Made by a program: the position numbers and the translations under genes
The notes under the pieces: generated by a model
What the model was told of the DNA's origin: nothing
Databases searched by the model: none
What the model saw: the letters and a program-made list of their open reading frames with translations, nothing else
Shown here: positions 310 through 60,305 of the stretch, in pieces
Position numbering within the stretch: the stretch's first letter is position 1
Layout of the letters: every line of letters begins with the position of its first letter
Virus record (IMG/VR): IMGVR_UViG_3300044825_003095
Span: 1-60,305 of that record
DNA from: a virus
Reading direction: 5' to 3' (one strand)
DNA: 60,305 nucleotides

Positions 310-329
310 TGCATTGTCCTCCTTCAAAC

Positions 330-830: not shown

Positions 831-1017
831 GTCGGGCGGGAGCGTGTCGAGCAGCGCCGCGACTCGCTCGGCGCGGGTCGGAGGATGCTGGTCGGCGATT
901 GGCGCCGTTCCGGCGCCGACGATTGCGGTGGCGGTCGCACAAACCGCCGCGATCAGAAAGGGCAGTGCATTGCGCAGTCTCCTTGTGTGCTCCGGCTACG
1001 GGCCGGATTCGGTTGAA

Positions 1018-1090
1018 CACCCGGCGCGGGAGTCGAACCCGCGTCCTGCGCGTTAGGACCGCGCCGCTCCATCCACTGAGCCAGCCGGGC
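1018..1090 (-). tRNA. tRNA-Arg (anticodon CCU)
   Basis: A 73-nt cloverleaf: acceptor arms GCCCGGC and GCCGGGT (one G-U pair at the end), D-arm GCTC/GAGC, anticodon stem GCGCG/CGCGC with loop GTCCTAA (anticodon CCT), variable loop AGGAC, and T-arm GCGGG-TTCGACT-CCCGC. CCA is not encoded. It should read AGG, usually a rare codon in GC-rich bacteria. It lies immediately downstream of a consensus promoter. Confidence 0.95.
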
Positions 1091-1092
1091 AA

Positions 1093-10693: not shown

Positions 10694-10906
10694 TCAGTCG
10701 ACGGCGCGGAGCTCGAACAGGAAGTGCCGGGTCGTCTCGTGGTCGACGCTGCCGGACGGGGTGACCCAGCGGACGCGGGCGAAGCGTTCGGAGCCCTCGA
10801 TGCTCTCGAACGTCTCGAGGCAGGTGACGACGCCGACGTGCGTGTCGTGGTCCTTGGCGCCGTGCAGGATGTGGCGGACCCTCGAACCGGGTGCGATGTC
10901 GGTCAT
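10694..10906 (-). CDS. Small SH3-like hypothetical protein
   Basis: 70 residues from MTDIAPGSRVRHILHGAKDH; GAGGAGACGAC precedes ATG 10906, overlapping the methyltransferase stop by 4 bp. The start (PGSRVRHI..DHDTHVGVV) and strand pattern resemble small SH3 or KOW-like folds. Last gene of the replication operon. Confidence 0.75.
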   Translation of the reverse strand: MTDIAPGSRVRHILHGAKDHDTHVGVVTCLETFESIEGSERFARVRWVTPSGSVDHETTRHFLFELRAVD

Positions 10907-12138
10907 GTCGTCTCCTCAAGGACGTTCCGTGGCCTGGCCAGTTCGTCAGACGGGAACACGGTCCCGCGTCGCTGGATGTCGTCCCGGATCCGCCGGCGGG
11001 CCATCGCGGCGTAGTCCGGATTGAGCTCGATGCCGATGCCGTTGCGGCCGAGGCGGTCGGCGACCATCACGGTCGTCCCGGCGCCGCTGAACGGGTCGAG
11101 CACGGTGCAGGGCACCACGTCGGGCGGTTTCCCCGCGTCGATCATCGCCCGGCACGCGCGCCCATCGCACGTCGGCTCCCAGCCCACTGTCTCCCGGCTC
11201 ACGCCGGCGACGGTGTTGGCGCAGGAGTTGCCCGTGCCCGCCTCGCCCGTCCGCTTCACCAGGTCGTTCGGCCGCGGTCGCTTCACCAGCCGCTTCTCGA
11301 CCTTGCGCCGCCACGGAGCGCCGCACGCCGCGCAGCAACCGTGCTCGCTCGTGCCGGCGCTGATGCACAGCCGCGGCAGCTCGGGCGGGAACGTGGCGAA
11401 ATGGGCCTCCTTGAAGCCGGCCGGCGCGATCCTCCACACCGACCGCCTGTTCCTGGAGGCCCGCGTCCACTCGGGCCTGTTGCCGCTGTAGGTCGTGTGC
11501 TCGCCGCCGTGGAAGCCGTTGGCCGCGTGCTTGATGCCGCCGATCGGCGGCATGCGCCCGACCGCCTTCATCGTCCCGTTCGTCTTGCCTGGGACGCGGT
11601 CCGAGCCGCGCTGCGCGTCGACGTCCTGCGACAGACGGTCGACGCTCGACTCGGCCAGCGGCTCCGCGATCGCGTCCGGATTGAAGTAGTAGCTCGGCCG
11701 CTTCGTGAGCAGGAAGATGTACTCGTGCGCCTTGGTGCAGCGGTCGCGCACGCTCTCGGGCATCGGGCTTGGCTTGTGCCACACGATGTCCTGGCGAAGT
11801 ATCCAGCCGTCGGCCTGCAACGCGAGGGCGAGCCGCCATGGGATGCCGAGCAGCGACTTTGGACGGATGCCGCAGCGGCGTCTCTCGTCCGGCCGCTCTC
11901 CGCGCCCCGTCGCGCCGTCGCTGCTTCCCGTCCGGTCGTCTCCGCCCGCGGTCGCGTACGAGTCGCCCATGTTGAGCCAGAGCGTGCCGTCGTCGCGGAG
12001 CACGCGCCGCACCTCGCGGAACACCTTCACCATCCGCGCGATGTAGGCGTCGGGCGTCGCCTCGAGGCCGATCTGCGGAGGAGGCCGGAAGAATCGCCTC
12101 AGATCCTCCGGAATGTCATCTTCGTGATAGAAGTTCAT
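10903..12138 (-). CDS. DNA methyltransferase, C-terminal fragment (N6-adenine/N4-cytosine, beta class)
   Basis: 411 residues carrying most of a SAM-dependent DNA methyltransferase. LRDDGTLWLNMGDSYA lies near residue 50. The zinc-finger-like CCAACGAPW is at about residue 270. The SAM-binding motif LDPFSGAGTTVMVADRLG with GIELNPDYAAMA lies at about 350-380. The catalytic (S/D)PPY motif that normally precedes these is missing here and is found in the separate frame 12609-12884. An HNH endonuclease gene lies between the two pieces. ATG 12138 has only a weak ribosome site and overlaps the HNH stop by 23 bp. The fragments may assemble as a split enzyme, be joined by intron removal, or be inactive. 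Expected role is modification of phage DNA against host restriction. Confidence 0.9.
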   Translation of the reverse strand: MNFYHEDDIPEDLRRFFRPPPQIGLEATPDAYIARMVKVFREVRRVLRDDGTLWLNMGDSYATAGGDDRTGSSDGATGRGERPDERRRCGIRPKSLLGIPWRLALALQADGWILRQDIVWHKPSPMPESVRDRCTKAHEYIFLLTKRPSYYFNPDAIAEPLAESSVDRLSQDVDAQRGSDRVPGKTNGTMKAVGRMPPIGGIKHAANGFHGGEHTTYSGNRPEWTRASRNRRSVWRIAPAGFKEAHFATFPPELPRLCISAGTSEHGCCAACGAPWRRKVEKRLVKRPRPNDLVKRTGEAGTGNSCANTVAGVSRETVGWEPTCDGRACRAMIDAGKPPDVVPCTVLDPFSGAGTTVMVADRLGRNGIGIELNPDYAAMARRRIRDDIQRRGTVFPSDELARPRNVLEETT

Positions 12139-19182: not shown

Positions 19183-21429
19183 TTGCCGAGGAGCCGCAAG
19201 CTGGACTCGTCGGCGGCCGTCGCCGACAAGCACGCCAAGGGCGCCGGCTTCGAGCCGCCGTTTGTCGCGGGGTCGCCGCCGCCTCAGATGCGCGCGCCGT
19301 CGTCGACGCCGATGTCCGGCGACAAGTTCAACGTCGAGTGGTTCGCCGAGTCGCTCGCGCTGCTCAACAGGTTCCAGGTCGACTACTGGAACTGGTGGGG
19401 CCGCGCGTGGCCAGAGTACCGCGAGCAGATCCAGACGCTCATGGCGATGGCCGAGGCGTGCGGCGTCGACCTCCAGCGCTACGCGCCCGAGACGCTGAGC
19501 ATCACGGACCTCTCCCGCATCGACGACGCGCTCTCGCTCTCCGACGAGCAGATCTCGGCGATGATCAGGCAGATCAACGACAGCGCCGCGACCGCGCTCC
19601 GGATGCTGCCGGACGTAAAAAAAAAATCGTGGCTCTCGTCGCTCGCTCGGATCAGGGCGATGCAGGAGATCTGCCGCGACCCGATCCCGCGGGCGGCGAT
19701 CAAGGCGGGGCTTGACGACGCGCTCCTGGAGGCGTGGGAGCTGACGCACCCGCTGCGGTTCATGCTCTACTGCTGGCGCTCCGACCTCAACCAGTCCGGC
19801 GGCCAGAAGGTGCTGCCGGACACGCCGGACCACATCGTCGAGGCGTGCCTCACGGTCGAGCTCGCGCAGCGTGCGCGAGACCAGCGGCACGACGTGAAGG
19901 GCGCGATCGTCACGATCCCGCCGAGGCACGGCAAGACGTCGTTCGTGCAGGCGCGGCGAGCGCTGCGCATCTCCCGCAACCCGTGGTCGCCGTTCGGCAT
20001 CGTGCACGCGAACGACGAGATCGCCGCCGACCGCGTCGCCGGCGTGAAGGAGTGGTTCGACGACGACCACCCGACCGGCAGGCGCCGCGCGGCGCTGTAT
20101 CCCCGCGTGCGGCTGCACCTCCGCAGGTCGAAGGCGAAGGACACCATCGTCGTCACGCTCGACGGCGAGATCGTGTGCTCGGCGAAGGAGGGCAACTACC
20201 GCGGCCACGGCGTGCACGCATCGGTGCAGGGCATCACGCTGCACGAGATCGACTTCGACGACCCGGTCGAGGAGCGCGAGCGCCGGGAGCGCGGTTCCCG
20301 CGAGCGCACGAACGCCGCGTTCCACCAGACCTGGCTGTCGCGCCTCACCGGCAAGACGTCGTTCTTCACGCTCATCTCGACGTGCTGGCACCCCGACGAC
20401 GTGACCGGCGGCTTGACGAAGATGGCCCGCAGCGGCGCGATGAACGTCGCGATGTGCAACCTCCCGTGCGGCGGGGCGCCGGACTTCAAGCCGCTGTGGC
20501 CCGGCGCCGGATACGACTCGGCGTTCCTGCGCGGCAAGTTCCGCACGCTCACGCCGCCGGTGTATGCGTGCATCTACCAGAACAACCCCGACGACATCTC
20601 GGGCCGCAAGATCAGCCGGCTGCACTACTACCCGTCCCGCATGTGGACGCACCCGGACGAGCGCGACGAGGCGTGGTCGCAGTTCTTCTCCGACCCGGCG
20701 ACGCTGTTCTACCTGTCGCTCGACCCCTCGGGCAGCTCGAACGTGAACAGCAACCGCGCCGGCATGCTCTACAGCGCGTTCGGCCGCCTGCTGCGGTACA
20801 GGCCCGACGGCATCGGCGTGCGCGTCCCGACGCTCGTGTTCCTGCGCTGCTGGTCGCTCACGCTCAGCCAGCACGGCCTGGCCGACGAGGTGCTCGCGTT
20901 CGTGGGCACCGGCGCCAAGGTCGACCGCGTGCTCGTCGAGACGACCAGCGGCTTCCACGCGACCGCCGAGGAGCTCGTCCGCCGCGGCATCCCCGCGAAC
21001 AAGGTGCTGTCGCTGGTCCCCGGCACGGGAACGAAGGTGTCGCGCCTGCTGCGGTACGCGCTCTACATCGAGGCCGGCGACGCGATGTTCCCCGGCGAGC
21101 CGACCGCCGACGAGGGCGGCAACGCGGTGCTGTCGTACGGGACCGACTGGGAGCGCACGGTCGACCAGCTCCTCCTGGCCGGCATGTCCGACGACGACGA
21201 GATGATCGACGTGATCCGGCAGCAGCTCGGCGAGGTGGCGCACGAGCTCGTGGCCGCGCACGGGTGGGACAAGCTGGACAAGGCGCTGCCCGCGAAGGCC
21301 GATGCGCAGGTGCGCGCGCTCGACAAGTTCTATCGTTCGCTGACGAAGGCGAGGCAGGAGCGCCCCCGTCGCACGCCGGGCTCCGCGTTCGGTTCGTTCT
21401 CAACAAGCAGGGTTCTCAATGCCAACTGA
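19183..21429 (+). CDS. terL: Terminase large subunit
   Basis: 748 residues. Motor domain: Walker A TIPPRHGKTSF at about 244-254 (Lys 251), Walker B ITLHEIDFDD at about 351-360, and a coupling-type TLISTCWHPDD motif. Nuclease domain: YLSLDPSGSS and VLVETTSGFH with acidic residues. The enzyme pumps DNA into the prohead and cuts it. It is long for the family because of a charged N-terminal extension of about 190 residues. The start is a TTG directly after the upstream TAG; a later start is possible. Codons 146-148 lie in a run of ten A (19617-19626), striking in such GC-rich DNA and a possible site of transcriptional slippage. Confidence 0.92.
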   Translation: MPRSRKLDSSAAVADKHAKGAGFEPPFVAGSPPPQMRAPSSTPMSGDKFNVEWFAESLALLNRFQVDYWNWWGRAWPEYREQIQTLMAMAEACGVDLQRYAPETLSITDLSRIDDALSLSDEQISAMIRQINDSAATALRMLPDVKKKSWLSSLARIRAMQEICRDPIPRAAIKAGLDDALLEAWELTHPLRFMLYCWRSDLNQSGGQKVLPDTPDHIVEACLTVELAQRARDQRHDVKGAIVTIPPRHGKTSFVQARRALRISRNPWSPFGIVHANDEIAADRVAGVKEWFDDDHPTGRRRAALYPRVRLHLRRSKAKDTIVVTLDGEIVCSAKEGNYRGHGVHASVQGITLHEIDFDDPVEERERRERGSRERTNAAFHQTWLSRLTGKTSFFTLISTCWHPDDVTGGLTKMARSGAMNVAMCNLPCGGAPDFKPLWPGAGYDSAFLRGKFRTLTPPVYACIYQNNPDDISGRKISRLHYYPSRMWTHPDERDEAWSQFFSDPATLFYLSLDPSGSSNVNSNRAGMLYSAFGRLLRYRPDGIGVRVPTLVFLRCWSLTLSQHGLADEVLAFVGTGAKVDRVLVETTSGFHATAEELVRRGIPANKVLSLVPGTGTKVSRLLRYALYIEAGDAMFPGEPTADEGGNAVLSYGTDWERTVDQLLLAGMSDDDEMIDVIRQQLGEVAHELVAAHGWDKLDKALPAKADAQVRALDKFYRSLTKARQERPRRTPGSAFGSFSTSRVLNAN

Positions 21430-30799: not shown

Positions 30800-33700
30800 T
30801 CACGCCTCGGCGCCGATCTCCCGCCGCCTCGCCGTCTCCTCGCGGAAGCGTGGCCGGAAGCTGCGCGGCACCATGTCCACGTACCCGAGCTCCCACAGGC
30901 GCCGGTAGTGGTCCACCATCTCGCCCGCGAGCCGCGTGGCGTCCTCGGTGTCGCCTCGCCGCCGCGCCGACTTGATGCGCGACCGCAGCGAGTCGCCCGC
31001 CTCGACGGCGTTGAACTCGAACTGCCGCGACACGTCCTCGGGCGTGGTGATGTGCAGGCGCGAGCCGCCGAGCGCGATGCGGGCGATCTCCGCCGGCCAG
31101 TCGTTGATGCCTCGGTTCACGCGGTCGGCGATCGACGCGCCGCGGCGCCACGGCCCGAGCTGGTTGAGCAGGTAGTCGGCCCACGGGATCCCGCCGGGCA
31201 CGTCGTTGCCGAGCGGCCGTCCCGAGTAGATCTCCCGCTGCGTCGCGATCTCGGGCAGCGCCTTGAGCAGCGGGTTGGCGCTCGACGTGACGTACTTGAG
31301 GAACTCGAAGAAGCCGTCGCCGCCCATCGTCGCCACGCCCGCCTCGAAGAGTTCCTGCGCAGGCGTGAGCGTCTTGAGCAGCGCGAACCGCATCGACGGA
31401 TGCGCCCCGATCTGCACGCCGACGTTGTCCCGCAGCCACGTGGGCTGGAGCTCCAGCGGCAGCTCGTCCTCGGACTGGATGGCCTCGTCGATCGCGTGCC
31501 GCAGCTTCGGGAACGCGGCGCCGTACGAGGGATTGTCCAGGAAGTGCCGAACCTGGAGGCTCATGTTCCCCTTCATCCATCGGTAGAAGGGCCACACGAG
31601 CGTTCCCCACTTCTGCTCGGCGTAGGAGAAGTCGGAGAAGTCCACGTGCGCCCGGCGCGCCATGTCGACGGCGTGGTCGAGCGAGTTGCCCTGCTCGATC
31701 AGGTCGAGCGCCGTCATCACGCGCCACAGGTCGTCGGTACTCGCGTTGAACTGGAACCAGCCGCCGTAGAACTTGCCGAGCCGGCTCCCCTGCATCAGCT
31801 TGCCGAGCAGGCCGCTCGAGTCGGCGCCGGTGCGCAGGATGTTGGGGATCTCCATCATCGAACGCCCGGCGCTGGCCACGCCGCCGAGCACAAGCAGCTC
31901 CTTGAGGTCGCGCCCGGAGATCATCGTGCCCTTGAGGTCGAACATCCGGCGGTCGATCCTCGTCCCGCCACGCTTCACGTCGTTCACGATCGACATGGCC
32001 AGCGGCGCCAGCGCGGGCCAGCGGCTCGGGCGGGAGCCGCCGATGAGCCAGCTCATCAGGCCGCCGGAGATCATGTTGCTCGTCCACCACGCGGGCGACG
32101 CGAACAACTGCGCCGCCTTCCACCAGTTCTGGACGACCTGGATGCCGCGGAACATCCCCGTGAGGTCGGCGTCGCTCGATAGCTTGCGCGCCATGTCCTC
32201 CACGTCGTCGGCGAGCGCGACCGGCCAGTAGTAGTGGTCGATCACGTCCTCGGAGATCGGGAACCTGAGCCGCATCTTCGAGATCAGTTCCCGCTTCACC
32301 GGGCGGTACTCGAGGCCGTCGATCACGACGGTCCCCTTGCTCGCGCCGCGCTGCATGGCCGCGACCTCGTCCCGCGTCCGCAGCTTCACGTACGGCGCGA
32401 TCTCCTCGGCGAAGCGCGCGCTGGCGCGGGCCTCGAGGTGCTGGCCCATGCGGCGGGCGAAGTTCGTCAGGATGTCCTCCTCGAACACCGTCTCGGCGAG
32501 GATCGACGCGCCGGACTTGAGGAAGTCGTCCCGCATGTAGTTGAGCATCTGCGGCGACGTCGGGAACTCCTCCGGCATCCACGGCGCGACCGATGCGTCG
32601 CCGCCGGGCAGGCCGAGCAGGTGTCGGTCGCCTGCGGTCATCAGGTCGTTGCCGGCGTTGCGCTGCCGCCGCAGGAAGTCCCGGCGCCAGCGCTCGAACG
32701 CCCACGAGTCGTCGTTGACGTTGTGCGCGTTGAGCTCGCCCGACCAGACCCAGTGGTCGCGGTCCACGTGCGCCCTCGCGAGGAGCTCCTGGATGGCCGG
32801 GGACAGGGCGCCCTTGTCGGCCCGCGTCGCCAGCTTGAGGATCAGCTCCTCGTTCTCCGGTCCCCACAGGATGCGGTTGGTGGCGCGCCGCAGTCCGAAG
32901 CGCGGGTTCGTCGAGAGCCGCCCGGTGGCGCCGGCGGGAACGGCCTCGCCGAGTCGCCGCAGCGAATCGACGTGGCTGGCGCGTGCGCCCTCGGTGAAGC
33001 CGATGGGGATGTACGCCAGCCGCGGCAGGTCGTCGGGCAGCAGCCCGAGCCCCGTCTCGATCTGCTGCCAGTCGTTGAACGTGCGCCAGATGTGCTGCGC
33101 AACCTGCTCGAAGCCGGGATCGCTCCGCAGCTTCGCGAAGGCGTCGGAGTTCTCGGCGGCGATGCGGTGCAGGATGTCGTCGCGCAGCGGTCCGACCACC
33201 CCGCGCTCGTCCTGCGCCACGGCGATCTCGAACACGCGGTGCGTCAGCGCCTGCTTGAGCGACTTCGGCTCGACGCCCGTCTCCTTGATCGAGGCGACGA
33301 CCATCTTGTTGATGTGGTTGACGGCCCTCGCCTTCGCGATGCGCGCCTGGTCCTCCGACTCGAAGCCGTAGCGGCGGGCGAGTTGCTTCATGCGCCGGTC
33401 GCTGTTGAGGTTGAACGCCGTGCGGGATCGCCGCATCGTCTCGTTGAGCGACTGGAGCCAGCGGAACGGCCGCTTCTCCTCGATCGCGCGGATCTCGTCG
33501 TCGATCGGCTTGAGGAGCGCCGCCGCGGTCGCGGCCGATTCCTCGGCGGCGGCGCGGCCCTTCGCCACCGTCTCCGCCAGGTGGGCGACCGACTCGGCCT
33601 CGGCGCCGGCGAAGCTCGCCTGGTCGGCGATGCCCTCGGAGATGCGCGTCATGTACGCGAGGTTCTCCCGACTTCGCCGCGTCATGTCCCACGGCAGCAT

Positions 33701-36700
33701 CGAGCCCGGCTGCGACGCCTTGTACTCGAACCGGAGCCCCGACGCGGCGGCGATCCGCTTTCGCGCCCAGCGGCTCGTGCCGACGACGAAGTGCCGGTCG
33801 CCCTCCATGTGGCCGACCGAGCGGCCGAACGTGCCGGCGGCGAGGCCGTCCCTCGTGCGGGGCGCCTGCACCCGCGCCGGCTGGATCACGACGTAGTCCG
33901 ATGGCGTCAGCAGTTGGGGGACGAGCTCGGCCTCGCTCGGGTTCACGCCTGCGGCGCGGAGGTCGTTGGCCGACACGAGGTCGCCGCCGTGCAGGTAGAC
34001 GCGGCGGTCGCCGGCCGGGCTCGCCCGCCGCACCGCCGCCTCGAGCGTCGGGCTGAACCCGAACACCTGCCGCTCGATGTCCCCGATCAGCGACCTTCCC
34101 TGCCGCCGCGCCTGCCTGGCGTTGATTCCGAGCTGGCGACGCAGGTAGTCCACCGCCGACTGCTGTCGCGCCAGGCCCTCGGTGTCCTTCGCCGGGATGC
34201 GGCGGCCGGCCTCGTACAGCGCCCGGTCCACGTCGTTCGTGAACTGGAGGTCCATCGATGTGCTGCGCCCCTTGTTGGAGACGCGACGGTCGCGGGCCTT
34301 GGGAAGGTCGATCGATCCGAACAGCGGCGGCTCGGGCCGCAGCGCCGCCGACCGGCCCTCCGGAACCCGGATCGTGTGCCGGACGACGCTGCCCATGTCC
34401 TCGCCGGCCCGGCGGATGCCGGTGCTCGTCAGGGACATCGAGCCGCCGACCAGCGACACCGGGTCGCCGTGGACGCGGACGAACCCGGCAAGCTGCCCGC
34501 CAGCCGGGTCGATGCCCCCGGCCCGGTGAAGCTCCTGCCATGTGTCGCCGACCGATGCGATCAGGCGCCGGAGCACGGCGTCGATCGCCGGGGTTCCGGT
34601 TTCCGGGTCGGTCCCGGAGGCCACGGCCCGCCCGACCCATGCCCCGATGCCCTCGGCCAGCCGGTCGGTGTTGCCGACGGGGATGCGCAGGGTCGCGCCG
34701 ATCTGGTGGATGCGGCGCCGATGGGAGCCCATCGTCTGCCGGACCAGCTCCGTTGCGACCGTCTCGGCGAACCCCTCGTAGGTCGGCGCCGTCGAAGCCG
34801 CCCCCATGGCGCGTGCCGCCTGGTCAAGCAGGACGCCGCCTGGGGCGTTCGCCCGATCGAACCACTCGTCCGGCCTTCCGCCGGTGAACGTGCCCCAGCC
34901 GGCAGCGACGGCCCTGAGCAGTGGCGTCTGAGAGGCGTCCCGCCCGGACATGGCCCGGCGCTCGTTGACCCGAGGCGGGACAACCTGCCGGTCCGACGAC
35001 GTTACGTACGACGGGATCGGCTCCAGCGGGAGCTCGACGGCGGTGGACAGGCTGTTGCCGGCCTTCCAGTCGTCGATGGCCTGCCGATGGACGGCGCGGA
35101 TCTGGTTGGCCACGTCCCTCGGGGTGCCCTTCGGGATGGACAGCACGGGTCGCGGGGTGACCGTCGTCGGCAGCGAACCCTCGAACGACCGGAGCTGGTC
35201 GATGGCGTCGGCCGCCCGCCCGGCGGCGACCCGCATGGACAGCGCCTCCGCCTCCCTGGCGTCGGCCACGGCCTCGCCCGCGAACCTGCCGCCCGCGGCC
35301 AGCCGCGCGGCGAGGCGCTGGTTCTCGATGTCGAGCAGGCGCTGGGCGAAGGCGTTCGCGTCCGCGATCTTCGACCGCTGCATCTCCAGGTCGCGATACC
35401 GCTGCGGACCGTGCCGGCCGAACAGCCGCTCGGCTCCCTTGCGCACGGCGGCGTACGGCCCGACCGCCGCCAGCGCCGCGTCGCCTTCCTTGAACGAGGC
35501 GTGCATCGAGTCGAGCGAGTCCTCGATGGCCAGCTTCGGCGCCGTCGCCACGTCCGCCAGTTGCTCCTCGGCGCGGGAGCGGGCCACGTGCGCGGCGCGG
35601 AGCTCGTCCTGCGCCTTCTGCACGATCGAGTCCGGCGCCACCGCCGCCGAGATGTCCACCTGGAACCGGGCCTCGTCGAACGCCTCGGCGGCGGCCTGCT
35701 CCCTCGCCTTGAGCGACCGGACCTTCTCCGTCAGCGACACGCGCTTCGACTCGCGGCGCACGTGGTCCACGCGGTCGAGCTCCCGCTGGACCGCCGCCCA
35801 GTGATGCACGGGGAGGTTCGGCCGGTTGAGCTTCCAGCCCTCGCGCACGAGCGACTCGACGCGGTGCGGATCGTCGATCGCCCGCAGCGGGACATGGATC
35901 ATGCCCGAGGCGTCGGTCACCGCGGCGGACCGCATGGCCTCGTCCATCGTCGGGACCGCGCTCGCCGGAATGGACAGCCGCCCGCCGCGAGACAGCGTCC
36001 GGCTCGCGTCGCGGAGCTCCTTCACCGCCTTCGCGTACTGCGCGTCGCGGGCGCCCACCAGCTCCGCCTCGCTGCCCCGCAGGAAGCGATGCAGGCGCCC
36101 CGGCTCGCCGAAGCCGCCGAACGGGAGGTTGCCGGAGCGGTAGCCCGGCAGCCGGTCCACGACCAGCGACGAGAACGGGAGCATCGCCTGGTGGGACGAC
36201 CGCGCCGCGTACTCGCGTGCGAAGTCGCGGGCGACCTGGCCACGGAACCGCTCGACGGGGCCGATGGTCGGGTCGGTCGTCAGCAGGTCGACGATCTCGC
36301 GGTCCATCGTCGCCTTGAGGCGGCGGCGGGCGAGGTTCAGGTCGTCGGTGACCTGCGCCACCTCCTCGGGCGACAGCGCCGAGTTGCGCAGCTTGTCGAT
36401 GCCGGACGCGATCGCCTCCCGGTACGTGCCGAGGTCCGCCGCCGTCCCCTTCACGACGTGCATCTCGTCGCCGATCTTGATCGACGTCTCGAACAGGTGG
36501 TTGAGCCGCGAGAGCTGCGGGTCGACCGGAAGCGCCCCGGTCTGCTGCACGTGGCGCACGATCTGCGACACCATCCGCGCGCCGCCCTTGTTGAACACGG
36601 CGCGCGAGCCGTCGCTGCCGATCTTGGTCACGACGTTGCCGCCGCCGGAGAGGTACGTCGTCGGATCGAGCAGCACGTCGCCGGCGAACCCGAGCACGGC

Positions 36701-37291
36701 GCGCGTCACGTTGTTCTCGACGCCCAGCCGCTCGAGCACGTCCGACGAGTAGACCTGCGGCGCACCGAACGTCCCCTGCCTCGCGCGGGCGACGATCCTC
36801 CGCCGGTCGGACTCGCTCGTCAGCAGCGGCCGGGCCGCCGCGCCTGCACCATACATCGCCGCCGCGCCGCCTCCGGCCCACGCCGCCCCCTCGAGCGCGC
36901 CCGCGATCGTTCCGGCTGGACCCAGCGCCGTGCCCGCGATGCCGCCGAACAGCGCGCCCCACGCGGCGGCGCTTCCGAGCCCGCCCGCGATCGTCGGCGC
37001 ATCGGGCTCGCCGAAAGCGATGTTCGCCATCGCGTTCCGCGGCAGGTCGAGGATGTCGAGGAACCGCTCCGTCGGCGTGCGAAGGTCGTGCACCGACGGC
37101 GCGCGCATGCCGCTGGCGACGGCCTGCTCGTCCATCTGGTTGATCTCGGACGACGTCAGCCGGTCGCGGTCGCGGCGCTGCAAGTAGACCTGTGGCACAG
37201 GGTTGGCGGCGCGGTTGAGGGCGATCAACCCGTCGACATATGCGGCGCGCGGATTGTGGACCTCCGGCGCTCCGGCGGCGAACTGCGTCAT
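30800..37291 (-). CDS. Giant internal virion / ejection protein
   Basis: 2163 residues from MTQFAAGAPEVHNPRAAYVD; AAGGTCATGGC precedes. Gly- and Ala-rich hydrophobic stretches at about 105-150 (AWGALFGGIAGTALGPAGTI) and GFAGDVLLDPTTYLSGGG near 200 could insert in a membrane; long Arg-, Glu- and Ala-rich helices fill 500-850. The C-terminal third (WWKAAQLFASPAWWTSNMIS; FYRWMKGNMSLQVRHFLDN) resembles the ends of large polyvalent or ejection proteins of podoviruses. No RNA-polymerase motif was seen. Its size (11% of the genome) and its place among tail genes suggest a protein packaged in the head and injected with DNA. Confidence 0.8.
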   Translation of the reverse strand: MTQFAAGAPEVHNPRAAYVDGLIALNRAANPVPQVYLQRRDRDRLTSSEINQMDEQAVASGMRAPSVHDLRTPTERFLDILDLPRNAMANIAFGEPDAPTIAGGLGSAAAWGALFGGIAGTALGPAGTIAGALEGAAWAGGGAAAMYGAGAAARPLLTSESDRRRIVARARQGTFGAPQVYSSDVLERLGVENNVTRAVLGFAGDVLLDPTTYLSGGGNVVTKIGSDGSRAVFNKGGARMVSQIVRHVQQTGALPVDPQLSRLNHLFETSIKIGDEMHVVKGTAADLGTYREAIASGIDKLRNSALSPEEVAQVTDDLNLARRRLKATMDREIVDLLTTDPTIGPVERFRGQVARDFAREYAARSSHQAMLPFSSLVVDRLPGYRSGNLPFGGFGEPGRLHRFLRGSEAELVGARDAQYAKAVKELRDASRTLSRGGRLSIPASAVPTMDEAMRSAAVTDASGMIHVPLRAIDDPHRVESLVREGWKLNRPNLPVHHWAAVQRELDRVDHVRRESKRVSLTEKVRSLKAREQAAAEAFDEARFQVDISAAVAPDSIVQKAQDELRAAHVARSRAEEQLADVATAPKLAIEDSLDSMHASFKEGDAALAAVGPYAAVRKGAERLFGRHGPQRYRDLEMQRSKIADANAFAQRLLDIENQRLAARLAAGGRFAGEAVADAREAEALSMRVAAGRAADAIDQLRSFEGSLPTTVTPRPVLSIPKGTPRDVANQIRAVHRQAIDDWKAGNSLSTAVELPLEPIPSYVTSSDRQVVPPRVNERRAMSGRDASQTPLLRAVAAGWGTFTGGRPDEWFDRANAPGGVLLDQAARAMGAASTAPTYEGFAETVATELVRQTMGSHRRRIHQIGATLRIPVGNTDRLAEGIGAWVGRAVASGTDPETGTPAIDAVLRRLIASVGDTWQELHRAGGIDPAGGQLAGFVRVHGDPVSLVGGSMSLTSTGIRRAGEDMGSVVRHTIRVPEGRSAALRPEPPLFGSIDLPKARDRRVSNKGRSTSMDLQFTNDVDRALYEAGRRIPAKDTEGLARQQSAVDYLRRQLGINARQARRQGRSLIGDIERQVFGFSPTLEAAVRRASPAGDRRVYLHGGDLVSANDLRAAGVNPSEAELVPQLLTPSDYVVIQPARVQAPRTRDGLAAGTFGRSVGHMEGDRHFVVGTSRWARKRIAAASGLRFEYKASQPGSMLPWDMTRRSRENLAYMTRISEGIADQASFAGAEAESVAHLAETVAKGRAAAEESAATAAALLKPIDDEIRAIEEKRPFRWLQSLNETMRRSRTAFNLNSDRRMKQLARRYGFESEDQARIAKARAVNHINKMVVASIKETGVEPKSLKQALTHRVFEIAVAQDERGVVGPLRDDILHRIAAENSDAFAKLRSDPGFEQVAQHIWRTFNDWQQIETGLGLLPDDLPRLAYIPIGFTEGARASHVDSLRRLGEAVPAGATGRLSTNPRFGLRRATNRILWGPENEELILKLATRADKGALSPAIQELLARAHVDRDHWVWSGELNAHNVNDDSWAFERWRRDFLRRQRNAGNDLMTAGDRHLLGLPGGDASVAPWMPEEFPTSPQMLNYMRDDFLKSGASILAETVFEEDILTNFARRMGQHLEARASARFAEEIAPYVKLRTRDEVAAMQRGASKGTVVIDGLEYRPVKRELISKMRLRFPISEDVIDHYYWPVALADDVEDMARKLSSDADLTGMFRGIQVVQNWWKAAQLFASPAWWTSNMISGGLMSWLIGGSRPSRWPALAPLAMSIVNDVKRGGTRIDRRMFDLKGTMISGRDLKELLVLGGVASAGRSMMEIPNILRTGADSSGLLGKLMQGSRLGKFYGGWFQFNASTDDLWRVMTALDLIEQGNSLDHAVDMARRAHVDFSDFSYAEQKWGTLVWPFYRWMKGNMSLQVRHFLDNPSYGAAFPKLRHAIDEAIQSEDELPLELQPTWLRDNVGVQIGAHPSMRFALLKTLTPAQELFEAGVATMGGDGFFEFLKYVTSSANPLLKALPEIATQREIYSGRPLGNDVPGGIPWADYLLNQLGPWRRGASIADRVNRGINDWPAEIARIALGGSRLHITTPEDVSRQFEFNAVEAGDSLRSRIKSARRRGDTEDATRLAGEMVDHYRRLWELGYVDMVPRSFRPRFREETARRREIGAEA

Positions 37292-51254: not shown

Positions 51255-52511
51255 CTACAGCCTCCAGTCCGGTGCGGCGATCTTCTCGGCGAACCTCGCC
51301 CACTTGGCGTCGTCGCGCATGTCGCGCGTCTCGATCTTGTGGTCGCCGAGGTAGTCGAGCACGGCCTCCTTCGCCGCCTCCGCGTTGTCGAACTTCCGCA
51401 CCTGCATGAACCGCTCGGCGGCGACGCCCAGCCGCTCGGTGAGCGTCTTGGCCGCGAGCAGCTTCTCCGCGACCTTGTTGCCGGACTCCGGCTTCGACTC
51501 CGTCGTCGGCGGCGCCTCGTCGGGCACCTCGGGCTCGGGAGCCGGGCCGCTCGCGGCCGGCGCCTGCGTCGCCACGACCTCTCGCGCCGCCTTCGTCTCG
51601 CGCACGCGACGCACCGTGCTCTCCGTCCGCGACTTCGGCGCGGCCTCCTGCTGCCCGGCGGCGTCGTCGTTCCGGTCGTCCTCGACCGCGCCTTCCTCCA
51701 TCGCCTCTCGCCCGCCGAGATCCTTGAGGTCGGCGCCGAGCTGCGCCGCGATCATCGCCGTGTCCACGCCGTCGCCGGACTCCTCGCCGTCGGACAGCGC
51801 GACGCCGAGCGACAGGTCGGGGGTCTGCGGCAGCCAGTTGCACATGCGACGCACGCCCGACTTGAGCATCATCGCGATCTCGTCGGTCGCCCACGCGGAC
51901 TTCTCCCGCTGCCACTCGGGCATCTTGGCGACGGCGCGCGCCTTGATGCCGTCGAGCTCGGCGCGGGTCAGGACGCGGAACGCCGTGCGCCCCGTCTTGA
52001 ACGTCGCGACGCAGTAGACGTGCGTGAGCTTCTCGATCACTCGCAGCGATCCGGTCGGCTCGTGCTCGATCGTCGGGTTGGAGCCGAGCATCACGCGGAA
52101 CCTGTCGCCCTCGAACACCGCGTACGGCTGGATCGTCTCCACCGTCCCGGTGCGGTAGGCGATCTCCATCAGCCCGCGGTAGCCGGGGATGAACTGCGCC
52201 TCGAGGATCTTGATCCACTTGTCGCCGCGCTTCTCGCTGCGGTTGAACGGGACCAGGTAGCCCTGGCCACCGATCCCCGTCGGGTCGAGCCCGAGCTGCG
52301 TCGCGGCCATCACGCTCGTCAGCACCGAGATCGGCGTGCAGTCGGCCAGCTTCGGCTGGCGAGACAGCAGCGCACCGACGATGCGCACCATCCGCTCGGC
52401 CGTCAGGTGCTTGCTCGCGACGGCCGCGAACGCGCCCTGCTTGGACTGCATGTACTTCACGAGCGCCGAAACCTTGCTCGGCGCCGGCGCCATCGGGACA
52501 GTCTCGCTCAT
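51255..52511 (-). CDS. recT: RecT single-strand annealing protein
   Basis: 418 residues; AGGAGACATGGA precedes ATG 52511. The core of about 240 residues carries the RecT signature: PKLADCTPISVLTSVMAATQ, LGLDPTGIGGQGYLVPFN, then LEAQFIPGYRGLMEIAYRTG and later MMLKSGVRRMCNWLPQTPDL. Longer than usual because of an acidic, Pro-rich linker (about 260-350) and a C-terminal helical domain. Anneals the single strands made by the exonuclease encoded just upstream. Confidence 0.92.
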   Translation of the reverse strand: MSETVPMAPAPSKVSALVKYMQSKQGAFAAVASKHLTAERMVRIVGALLSRQPKLADCTPISVLTSVMAATQLGLDPTGIGGQGYLVPFNRSEKRGDKWIKILEAQFIPGYRGLMEIAYRTGTVETIQPYAVFEGDRFRVMLGSNPTIEHEPTGSLRVIEKLTHVYCVATFKTGRTAFRVLTRAELDGIKARAVAKMPEWQREKSAWATDEIAMMLKSGVRRMCNWLPQTPDLSLGVALSDGEESGDGVDTAMIAAQLGADLKDLGGREAMEEGAVEDDRNDDAAGQQEAAPKSRTESTVRRVRETKAAREVVATQAPAASGPAPEPEVPDEAPPTTESKPESGNKVAEKLLAAKTLTERLGVAAERFMQVRKFDNAEAAKEAVLDYLGDHKIETRDMRDDAKWARFAEKIAAPDWRL

Positions 52512-54272: not shown

Positions 54273-54626
54273 TCACTCCGAGCACGAGTGGCTTTCCGGG
54301 CACGCCGTGTGCCCCGCGCATCGCTTGCCGCCCATGCAGAACGTCGGGCAGTCGGTCGCCGTCCCGATCCTCGGGTTCGCTGGATACGGAAGCCGTCGAA
54401 CCGCCGTCACCTCGTTCTGGATCAGCGTCCCGGCGATCTCCTTCGCCCGCTCGGCGCTCGGCGCCTCGACGCATGCGCCCTCGCGCCCCTCGAAGTCCAC
54501 CCACCACGGCACGGGAGCCGGTGGCTTCTCCCGGACATCCTTGAGGCATCCCAGGCAGTAGTCGCGGCTCAGCATCAGCAGCCCGCCACAGCCGGGGCAA
54601 CGTCGCTCGGTCATCGTCTCAGGCAT
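54273..54626 (-). CDS. Zinc-ribbon protein
   Basis: 117 residues; GGAGGGCGCCA precedes ATG 54626. RRCPGCGGLLMLSRDYCLGC is a treble-clef zinc ribbon; the second half has TDCPTFCMGGKRCAGHTACP, another metal-binding cluster. Overlaps the sliding-clamp gene by 8 bp. Role unknown. Confidence 0.8.
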   Translation of the reverse strand: MPETMTERRCPGCGGLLMLSRDYCLGCLKDVREKPPAPVPWWVDFEGREGACVEAPSAERAKEIAGTLIQNEVTAVRRLPYPANPRIGTATDCPTFCMGGKRCAGHTACPESHSCSE

Positions 54627-55764
54627 TGGCGCCCTCCTTCGGCATCGCCATCTTCCCGATCACGTACTGCGTCCCGTTGCCGAACACCATCCGCAGCAGG
54701 TTCGGGGCGCCGCACTCGATCTTGATCTCCGCGTCGCCGGCGTCGCATGCGTTGATGGCGCCGATCAGGCTCGCCGGGTTCACCGAGAACCTGATCGGAG
54801 GCCCGTCGACCTTGGCCTCCAGCTCCACGGCCGACTCGCCGACGGCGTCTGACCGGCTCGACACCACCAGGCGTCCATCCTGGACGTCCACGATTGCGCC
54901 AGACGAGCGCGCCGGGTCGGCCATCAGCGACGCCAGCCGCATGGCCGTGTCCAGCCGGGCGGCTCCCACGGTCACCGCAGGGGCGGCCTGCGCCACGAAC
55001 AGCGACTCGATCGCCGGCACGCGCGCCGCCACCAGCGAGCTCCACAACGTCGCCCGGCCAGCCCGCATCACGAAGCCGACGTGATTCCCGCCGAACAACA
55101 CCTGCATGTCGCCGTCGCCGTCGAGCATCCGCAGCACGGCGTCCACCGCCTTCGGGGGCACGATCGCACGGTGCGATCCGCGAACGTCGCAGACGCCCTC
55201 CGCCGTCGACCGGCCGAACACCCGGCCGTTCCCGGCGGTCGCCGTCAACGCGAACCCGTGGGCGTCCAGCACCGTCCCGACGATCGTCTCCCGGCCCTCG
55301 AGGTCCGTCATCGCGACACCCGTCTCCGTCAGCAGGCGGCGCATCGACACCTGGCCGACGTCCATCGTCGCGCTGCTCGCCGCAGGAACCGCCATCGGCA
55401 CGAACCTGCTCGCCGGCTGCGCCATGAGCCGGAACGTGGCGCCGCCGCCCTTCACGGTCAGCCGCTTGTCGTCGAGCTCGATGCGCAGCGTCTCCGCCTC
55501 GAACGACTGCACGACCGACAGCAGCGTCCCCACCGGGACGAACGTCGAACCCTCGCCGAGCAGCTCGAACCGCTCGAGTTGGATGCTCGCGGCCATCTCG
55601 TTGCCCGTCGCCCGAACGACCGCCGTCTCGGATGCCTGGCTCGTCTCGAGCAGCACGCACCGCTCGTCCGCCTGCAACAGCTTCGACCGCACCACCGGCG
55701 CCATCGCCGCCAGCGCCTCCGCCAGCTCCCGCACGTCGCACTTGAGCATTCCAAGCTCGCCCAT
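54619..55764 (-). CDS. DnaN-like DNA sliding clamp
   Basis: 381 residues from MGELGMLKCDVRELAEALAA, near the length of bacterial beta clamps (about 366). Three similar domains are visible. Characteristic segments are ALAAMAPVVRSKLLQADERC near the start, GTLLSVVQSFEAETLRIELD, HRAIVPPKAVDAVLRMLDGD in the middle, LWSSLVAARVPAIESLFVAQ, and a C-terminal GAPNLLRMVFGNGTQYVIGK. The usual final M-P-(M/L)R-L is replaced by KMAMPKEGANA. ATG 55764 is chosen for AAAGGTGG 8 nt upstream. A clamp tethers DNA polymerase III; no phage polymerase is present, so it probably serves the host enzyme or competes with the host clamp. Confidence 0.85.
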   Translation of the reverse strand: MGELGMLKCDVRELAEALAAMAPVVRSKLLQADERCVLLETSQASETAVVRATGNEMAASIQLERFELLGEGSTFVPVGTLLSVVQSFEAETLRIELDDKRLTVKGGGATFRLMAQPASRFVPMAVPAASSATMDVGQVSMRRLLTETGVAMTDLEGRETIVGTVLDAHGFALTATAGNGRVFGRSTAEGVCDVRGSHRAIVPPKAVDAVLRMLDGDGDMQVLFGGNHVGFVMRAGRATLWSSLVAARVPAIESLFVAQAAPAVTVGAARLDTAMRLASLMADPARSSGAIVDVQDGRLVVSSRSDAVGESAVELEAKVDGPPIRFSVNPASLIGAINACDAGDAEIKIECGAPNLLRMVFGNGTQYVIGKMAMPKEGANA

Positions 55765-55768
55765 GCCG

Positions 55769-56005
55769 TCAACCACCTTTCTCATCTTCGGTGAACTCGA
55801 TCGTGACCTTCGCACGCAACGCGGATCCGACCGACCCCTTCGTCGATCTCTCGCATGCGTCCACGACAACCTGCGCCTGCGCCCTGGTCTGATACAGCAA
55901 CCCGAACGCGCCGCTCTTGCCGCACTGCGGCAGAATCGTTCCCCCTCCCTTCCTCAGAACCCGCGGAACCCACGCATTCACGACCACCTTCGGATACTTG
56001 CTCAA
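55769..56005 (-). CDS. Small basic protein
   Basis: 78 residues from a TTG at 56005 with AGGAGCCGAGTA in front (MSKYPKVVVNAWVPRVLRKG). Strand-rich, basic. Ends 4 bp before the clamp start; coupled expression suggests a replication role. No family recognised. Confidence 0.7.
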   Translation of the reverse strand: MSKYPKVVVNAWVPRVLRKGGGTILPQCGKSGAFGLLYQTRAQAQVVVDACERSTKGSVGSALRAKVTIEFTEDEKGG

Positions 56006-59180: not shown

Positions 59181-59632
59181 TTGAGCACCTCCGGCGGCTC
59201 GATGCCGCAGAGCGAGTAGGCGAGCTTGAGCTTGGCGAAGAGGCGGTTGTCGCTCCTGAAATCGAACAGGATGTTGCACTCCGGGGCCAGGTACAAGTCC
59301 TTGAACTGAATGCAGTACGCCCCGCCGACTCTGGCGTACGCAATCGACGCTTGTCGTTTGTGCGTCTCTTCCTCCAGCAGTCGATCCACCCCGAACTCGA
59401 TCCGCTCGGCGGCGGTCGCGTCGTCGCAGTCGTACAGGTGCGTCTCGCCGGTGGTATTGCCGTTGGGGTACTTCCTGCGGCTTCGATATACCCACAGTGG
59501 TTCATGCGAAGAACCGACGAACGCGGGGTTGACGAACGTCAATTCGGCTTCGAGGAATCGCGGCCTGCACTCCGGCCGTTCCTGCCACAGCCGCTCCACG
59601 GCGGCGTGGATGGTTGAGGGGGTGGTGGTCAT
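59177..59632 (-). CDS. Hypothetical protein
   Basis: 151 residues from MTTTPSTIHAAVERLWQERP; the start overlaps the Cys-Ser-X gene stop by 4 bp (ATGA). Shares the MTTT opening of early genes. Contains DCDDATAAERIEFGVDRLLE and a strand-rich C-terminus. Function unknown. Confidence 0.8.
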   Translation of the reverse strand: MTTTPSTIHAAVERLWQERPECRPRFLEAELTFVNPAFVGSSHEPLWVYRSRRKYPNGNTTGETHLYDCDDATAAERIEFGVDRLLEEETHKRQASIAYARVGGAYCIQFKDLYLAPECNILFDFRSDNRLFAKLKLAYSLCGIEPPEVLK

Positions 59633-60305
59633 GGGCCGACGCTCTCCGCAATCTCGGCTTCCGCCAGCCGCTTCATGTCGGCCATCGCGGCATCGTTGGA
59701 ATCGAAGAACCGGGTCATCGGAACGGCGTGCGGAGAGCTGGCCCGGTAGATCATGCTTGCCGCGAGCGGCGTGTCGAATCGCTTCTCCAGTGCGTAGCCA
59801 GCCTCTCCAGCGAGATGCACAACGTGTCCAGCGCGGCAGTGCGTCGTGTTGCACCGATGCCATATCGACATGTCGAGCGCCCCCGGAACGCTGACCGCTT
59901 CCAACACGCGCTGATGGATGTTCTCGATCTTCGGCACTTCCACCGGGGCCTGCTGTGCTGGGCTCCAGCCCGAGCAGTCCGAGCAGCGCGAGCAGTCCGA
60001 GCAGCGCGAGCAGTGCGAGCAGTCCGAGCAGCGCGAGCAGTCCGAGCAGCGCGAGCAGTGCGAGCAGTCCGAGCAGTGCGAGCAGTCCGAGCAGTGCGAG
60101 CAGTCCGAGCACTCCGAGCAGCCCGAGCAGCCCGAGCAGCCCGAGCAGCGCGAGCAGCGCGAGCAGTGCGAGCAGTCCGAGCAGTGCGAGCAGTCCGAGC
60201 ACTCCGAGCAGCCCGAGCAGCCCGAGCAGCCCGAGCAGCGCGAGCAGCGCGAGCAGTCCGAGCAGCGCGAGCAGCGCGAGCAGTCCGAGCAGCCCGAGCA
60301 GCCCG
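59629..60305 (-). CDS. Cys-Ser-X repeat protein, repeat array and C-terminal domain (wraps to 1-309)
   Basis: The frame is open from the contig end through the repeat to the stop at 59629. On the closed genome only 59629-60180 belongs here and continues at 309-1. After the last CSG triplet come WSPAQQAPVEVPKIENIHQR and the domain MSIWHRCNTTHCRAGHVVHL, AGEAGYALEKRFDTPLAASM and IYRASSPHA. This C-terminal domain is a known small phage domain often fused to repeat regions. A separate GTG at 59943 could start the domain alone, but continuity and the ribosome site at 309 favour the fusion. The predicted product has 286 residues, half of them Cys-Ser-X. Confidence 0.85.
   Translation of the reverse strand, partial: GCSGCSDCSRCSRCSDCSRCSRCSGCSGCSGCSECSDCSHCSDCSHCSRCSRCSGCSGCSGCSECSDCSHCSDCSHCSDCSHCSRCSDCSRCSDCSHCSRCSDCSRCSDCSGWSPAQQAPVEVPKIENIHQRVLEAVSVPGALDMSIWHRCNTTHCRAGHVVHLAGEAGYALEKRFDTPLAASMIYRASSPHAVPMTRFFDSNDAAMADMKRLAEAEIAESVGP
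59969..60305 (-). repeat. 9-bp tandem repeat array (second half)
   Basis: Continuation of the array at 1-215; bases 60181-60305 duplicate 1-125. The units vary only at the two bases that encode X in Cys-Ser-X, so the Cys and Ser codons (TGC TCG) are strictly kept. Confidence 0.95.
60181..60305. repeat. Exact terminal direct repeat (copy 2)
   Basis: Identical to 1-125 at every base. If the ends were joined without trimming this copy, the reading frame of the repeat gene would shift by two; trimming restores it. Confidence 0.9.

Follow-up and report, generated by a model that had tools for sequence, protein, structure and literature searches.

The window, i.e. the whole stretch of 60,305 nucleotides analyzed here (IMG/VR virus record IMGVR_UViG_3300044825_003095), belongs to a phage, with a terminase large subunit gene at positions 19183–21429 on the plus strand. 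Its first 125 nucleotides (1–125) are identical to its last 125 (60181–60305), and no longer end overlap was found. This direct terminal repeat is an assembly overlap within a tandem array; counted once, it leaves a circle of 60,180 bp, on which a single minus-strand gene runs from an ATG at 309 to position 1, continues from 60180 to 59629 and ends with a TGA stop codon at 59629–59631. A Shine-Dalgarno-like AAGGAGG, read from the sequence, lies eight bases 5′ of the start codon (318–324, minus strand). The gene is open for 286 codons, and its product consists of a head of 33 residues (MTTWIKDANGNKCSVEYWGTKEAAQRALDGLTG; 211–309), 47 uninterrupted Cys-Ser-X (CSX) triplets, a short linker (WSPAQQAPVE; 59938–59967) and a C-terminal domain (C-domain) of about 100 residues with the WHRCNTTHCRAG motif (59629–59937). 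The 5′ part of the array (23 1/3 triplets) occupies positions 1–210 and the 3′ part (23 2/3 triplets), with a 9-bp period in TRF, positions 59968–60180. In all 47 triplets, Cys comes first, Ser second and a polar or turn-prone X third (R14, D13, G12, H6, E2), and Cys accounts for 47 of the 141 array residues (33%), exactly at every third position.

The 9-bp array is open in all six frames; openness alone therefore proves nothing, and it is the homology of the head and the C-domain that fixes the frame. When the contig ends are abutted with the overlap kept, the frame is broken, which leaves the overlap-joined reading as the one that gives the family architecture. On this joined sequence, we recovered the coordinates, the 33-residue head, the 47 triplets and the X alphabet of G, D, R, H and E that the initial annotation had described. 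Its claim that a real protein spans the contig ends also holds: the same order of head, array and C-domain recurs in dozens of contigs in which the gene is internal. Judged from these sequences, the split gene is confirmed.

The CSX gene shares its strand with the recombination and replication genes of the window, which include those for a RecT-like annealing protein (51255–52511) and a DNA polymerase processivity factor (54619–55869); a DNA methyltransferase gene (10903–12138) is also on the minus strand. Among its relatives, recurrent co-oriented neighbors encode RecT, YqaJ exonuclease, NinB and an AAA ATPase as well as, by motif, C5 methyltransferase-like and SSB-like proteins, while NinG recurs nearby on either strand. 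As far as gene content tells, the setting is that of an early gene, which is context and not function. A tRNA-Arg gene with the anticodon cct lies close to the CSX gene (1017–1091, minus strand). Elsewhere in the window, an open reading frame of 2,163 residues (30800–37291, minus strand) and several other large ones have no PHROG match.

We retrieved about 240 relatives (a redundant set) that share the CSX array and the C-domain; many also share the head, which was recovered as a conserved element in 93 viral stretches. In the window, this head is of type A (DxNGN(K/R)CSVEYxGxxEAAQxALDSL) and immediately precedes the array. The window C-domain carries the family motifs WHxCxTTHCRAG, here in the form HRCNTTHCRAG, and LAGxxGxxLE; in an alignment of 25 relatives, the residues H, C, T, H, C, R and G of the former motif are invariant. 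The C-domain might harbor a metal site or a catalytic Cys. The C-domain matches phrog_31265 (E=1.6e-31) and the array phrog_15341 (5e-11, a match that may be partly compositional), both of unknown function, in agreement with the earlier remark that such arrays are known in phages without a function. No Pfam family was found for the C-domain, and the whole protein had no match above the cut-off in Pfam, NCBIfam or PADLOC, the latter being searched for known anti-phage defense proteins at E 0.1. A sequence-profile search of the PDB gave a chance match only (E 0.36), and 25 kb of the window, searched by megablast, matched no annotated phage.

Several relatives depart from the plain arrangement. 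In stretch L093 (5407–8435), two tandem CSX paralogs with 46 and 53 triplets are followed by a third open reading frame, whose repeats are of the AGYTAxDL type and whose C-domain is a divergent version (CGTAMCTAGH). The isolated Flavobacterium phage FL-1 (L041, 3482–4201) has an array of 36 triplets; shortly past WHSCETT, the sequence as deposited departs from the frame of the C-domain, and the region is annotated as two small hypothetical proteins. Stretch L270 (3001–3477) joins a type A head to a Cys-Thr-X array (CTLCTD...) and an unrelated C-terminal region (CDLSNPSYRLPVSDPRGYTWLAIHEGGEW...) that has no Pfam match. In stretch L019 (3471–4199), a second long repeat of the 9-bp type lies about 2 kb upstream of the CSX gene; one of its frames reads as 62 CVQ/CVP triplets, but this reading was set aside, as it comes without the family head or C-domain. 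Finally, the siphovirus protein A0A8S5VD55 in BFVD, named ‘TNFR-Cys domain-containing’, gave a weak, non-significant structural match (32% identity over 178 columns) and is possibly a CSX array mis-named by automatic annotation.

The break of the window within the array is not an isolated case. Dozens of viral contigs carry head, array and C-domain without interruption, and so do the genomes of isolates, such as Kaistia, Dyadobacter and Rhizorhapis; the isolate loci, found among L099–L105, also include Bosea. Many other contigs terminate within the array. In at least three further contigs, head and C-domain sit at opposite ends: 3300027748_000001, whose ends overlap by 50 bp and allow in-frame read-through, as well as 3300033067_001247 and 3300044980_000059, neither of which shows an exact end overlap. 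The longest exact repeat within the joined window array is 98 bp. Assemblies thus often break at the array, which makes copy numbers derived from short reads uncertain; the figure of 47 triplets is therefore an assembly value and not a sequenced length. Across the family, array lengths range from 6 to more than 50 triplets, with no preference for multiples of 3 or 4, and a rotational phasing of the head against the C-domain was rejected on these grounds. Stretches L086 and L090 are 99.3% identical over 7,102 bp, with a net 45 bp (45 positions) in gaps, yet their arrays count 42 and 37 triplets, respectively. Array length thus changes by whole triplets, and the expectation that repeat number would vary between relatives proved correct. 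In two stretches (L082 and L275), the C-domain is out of frame with the array, owing either to real decay or to an assembly error in the array.

The initial annotation had also read the invariant Cys and Ser codons of the window as a sign of selection at the protein level. This argument fails for the window itself: in its array, TGC encodes each of the 47 Cys and TCG each Ser, there are only five types of unit, and these vary at just three of nine bases, making up a near-perfect tandem DNA repeat. Since the synonymous third positions are as frozen as the others, codon invariance in the window is not evidence of protein selection, and such an inference from the window codons alone was rejected; what the invariance shows is recent DNA amplification. 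The conclusion is regained from the family. The Ser codon is mostly uniform within an array and differs between phages (TCG, TCC, TCT, TCA, AGC or AGT), as does the Cys codon across arrays (TGC or TGT), so that the DNA unit changes while the Cys-Ser-X peptide is kept, which argues for protein selection. Over 142 arrays, diversity is high at the first and second bases of the X codon (0.45 and 0.47) and low at the third positions of the Cys and second codons (0.016 and 0.039). X is drawn almost wholly from NRY codons (3,768 of 3,911), and Cys, encoded by TGC or TGT, occurs at X only 4 times in these 3,911 triplets, against 148–175 expected. Among 4,843 Cys in 179 arrays, true breaks of the three-residue register number only two; at 8 positions, Cys is replaced with the register intact, by Ser (4), Ala (2), Arg (1) or Phe (1). 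As the array definition itself selects for Cys, these figures somewhat overstate its conservation. One array (L066), for example, ends in several Ser-Tyr-Asp triplets, and aromatic residues are common in the family (232 Tyr at X; 155 Tyr, Phe or Trp at position 2). The comparison of homologs that had been proposed as a check on Cys and Ser versus X gives diverse X bases, a near-perfect Cys register and a Ser that is kept despite codon switching. Taken together, these sequence comparisons show DNA amplification within each array and protein-level constraint between arrays.

Structure prediction, likewise proposed at the outset, was carried out with AlphaFold2 on two pieces of the protein, one encoded at 59629–60303 (with 64 relatives) and the other at 1–309 (with 34 relatives, in an almost gap-free alignment of 104 columns). 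The C-domain was predicted as all-helical with a pLDDT mostly above 94 and the head as a bba fold with a pLDDT of about 88, whereas the array reached only 28–45 in the first piece and about 30 in the second. Fold searches of the PDB and BFVD with the model gave no match at E 0.001, the C-domain included. As far as the model goes, the low confidence of the array counts against a solenoid. Residue spacing gives a different hint. Tyr at X is enriched at a distance of four triplets, or 12 residues (80 versus 56.6; ratio 1.41, bootstrap 1.17–1.71), and the excess persists in pairs with mismatched flanks (31 versus 20.6). It shrinks from z 5.2 to 4.2 and 3.5 upon removal of near-duplicate arrays and array ends, the strictest value of 3.5 being one among 312 tests. 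The enrichment is absent for D, G and R at X; together with its persistence in pairs with mismatched flanks, this argues against 36-bp duplications as its cause, but, like the weakening, it also counts against a solenoid. In sequence terms, the Tyr spacing is a hint of 12 residues per turn. The avoidance of adjacent Tyr-Tyr (z −4.5) and Arg-Arg (z −3.9) at X is firmer than this signal; apart from these neighbors, the order of X is near random.

A further comparison comes from the relatives of the C-domain, in which the place of the array may be taken by other repeats. As N-terminal arms on related C-domains, we counted about 240 CSX arrays (redundant), 85 pentapeptide arms, 8 hexapeptide arms and 1 HEAT arm. 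The alternatives are identified by Pfam (Pentapeptide, PF00805; Hexapep, PF00132; HEAT, PF02985), for instance the pentapeptide arm of L012 with 1.1e-24, while the CSX array matches no model; every alternative arm identified in this way is a solenoid. Hexapeptide arms, which form a left-handed β-helix, are joined to a related C-domain in L302 (1392–2306) and L322, and the HEAT arm in L313 (1425–2291). An unclassified VDLSQGASLTAPVLA repeat is joined to a related C-domain in L333 (1–426), and in L319 (IMG/VR 3300047994_000225), three genes in tandem each combine a pentapeptide arm with the same type of C-domain. In a phylogeny of 150 C-domains, the five arm states require six changes; hexapeptide arms have at least two origins, and the CSX members fall into a single clade (SH-aLRT 95). 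By this tree, the superfamily has swapped its arm repeatedly, with a single change to CSX. A frequent switching to CSX was rejected on account of this single clade, and for the same reason the argument from solenoid exchange rests, in the case of CSX, on one event.

Based on this exchange of the same slot with solenoid repeats, we favor a reading in which the CSX array is a Cys-cored solenoid arm that positions the C-domain on an early phage protein, its length being tuned by the gain and loss of triplets; we regard the chances of this proposal as evenly balanced. The protein is built from three parts, namely a small head, an arm of repeats and a C-domain that is helical and conserved. The arm itself would be a solenoid rod with one face per triplet, in which Cys, with its small thiol side chain, would point into the core at every third residue, while Ser and the turn-prone X (G, D, N, R, Y, S, H) would face outward. 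It would serve as a rigid spacer or surface of adjustable length, which places the C-domain as the conserved working part, and gain and loss of units that keep the frame would tune its length. The neighborhood of RecT, YqaJ, NinB/NinG and DNA methyltransferase suggests action early in infection, at the DNA level or on host or defense factors. More tentatively, with chances somewhat short of even, the CSX array would be a new class of short-period solenoid, with three residues to a face, 12 to a turn and an unbroken thiol core, interchangeable with pentapeptide, hexapeptide and HEAT repeats. Metal ions or disulfides may be stacked in a column within this core.

The density of Cys invites another reading, in which the array is a thiol chelator, either metallothionein-like or a CxxCxxC chain for Fe-S, zinc or copper, that folds in a metal-dependent manner and buffers or senses metal or redox state while the phage infects its host. 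One third of the array is Cys, CxxCxxC is the spacing of metal-cluster ligands, and AlphaFold2 yields no metal-free fold. Yet the spacing is strictly three, with CC and CxC avoided as seen from the rarity of Cys at X, aromatics are common in the arrays, and Cys-poor pentapeptide, hexapeptide and HEAT arms fill the same slot in relatives of the C-domain, so that metal is not a shared need; we consider a chelator rather unlikely. A similarly low probability attaches to a disordered linker of variable length or a low-complexity arm that forms condensates, perhaps with redox crosslinks, in which case the work would fall to the C-domain. The near-perfect register and retention of Cys, the restricted X alphabet and the avoided neighbors are not what a mere linker would lead one to expect, and the alternative arms in the slot are ordered solenoids, even if the pLDDT of about 30, the wide range of lengths without a preferred multiple of 3 or 4 and their ready shift among near-identical phages all speak for disorder.

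Two further readings appear highly improbable to us. The repeat could matter as DNA, as iterons, a packaging or recombination site or a slippage artefact, with the peptide as a by-product, which would agree with the open frames and the near-perfect tandem repeat of the window. This is disfavored, as the DNA unit varies between phages while the peptide is constant and as dozens of contigs maintain a common frame for head and C-domain through the array; an iteron function was rejected because the DNA unit is not conserved. No better chance is given to a recognition code, in which each X would recognize a single unit on a partner surface or polymer, and arrays would diversify by recombination to keep pace with a changing target. 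It could draw on the contrast between diverse X bases and nearly frozen synonymous sites, on the recurrence of few X types (D, G, R, Y) and on duplicated paralogs with different arrays (L093), but no shared X strings and no target were identified, and the order of X is near random outside the Tyr and Arg neighbors.

Should the Cys-cored solenoid prove true, an adjustable-length, thiol-cored rod would be a novelty in structural biology and of use to protein design. A search of the open literature found nothing relevant on tripeptide Cys repeats in phages, nor a tripeptide type of solenoid that is interchangeable with known ones. The CSX protein is not unheard of, as both of its parts already belong to PHROG families without a function. 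With this comparison, an odd array of low complexity becomes a structural question that can be tested: at least four types of repeat occupy one slot in a widespread phage family, and since three of these are solved solenoid folds, the fourth probably represents a fold that has yet to be seen. It would also offer a first functional handle on the conserved, unnamed C-domain that hundreds of phages carry with its WHxCxTTHCRAG motif.

Among known systems, PHROG 31265 and 15341, which match the C-domain and the array, record no function, fold or modular exchange of repeats. Similar in arrangement are the pentapeptide-repeat proteins (PF00805), which stand in the same slot ahead of the same C-domain in relatives such as L012. 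Their fold, exemplified by MfpA, Qnr and HetL, has four faces per turn, to be compared with the four triplets per turn suggested for the CSX array; by contrast, the CSX unit has three residues with an invariant Cys instead of A(D/N)LxX and lacks a Pfam match. DNA mimicry as in MfpA and Qnr was rejected for the CSX protein, which is near neutral (32 acidic residues versus 28 Lys/Arg in the window). Metallothioneins, with which the CSX array and its 33% Cys are on a par in density, mix CC, CxC and CxxC; they and the CxxCxxC metal proteins share Cys density and CxxC spacing with the array, which differs in its avoidance of CC and CxC, its aromatics and its very long, perfect periodicity. The His-Xaa-Ser protein HxsA is likewise a bacterial three-residue tandem repeat, with His in place of Cys; CSX proteins score 14.6–17.7 bits against its NCBIfam model, which has a cut-off of 55, and no radical-SAM partner was found among ten neighbor clusters scanned against Pfam. 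A physical likeness is offered by the β-helix of the beetle antifreeze proteins TmAFP and DhbAFP (TCTxSxNCxxAx), which has a 12-residue coil, inward residues at every third position and a small core of Cys, Ser and Ala (C2, S5, C8 and A11; PMC8038014). There is no homology, and these proteins are secreted, disulfide-bonded and ice-binding, a setting of which the CSX protein shows no sign. Their coil nevertheless makes a solenoid with Cys at every third residue physically plausible and agrees with the 12-residue hint from the Tyr spacing; unlike the beetle proteins, the CSX array would have Cys at all four inward positions.
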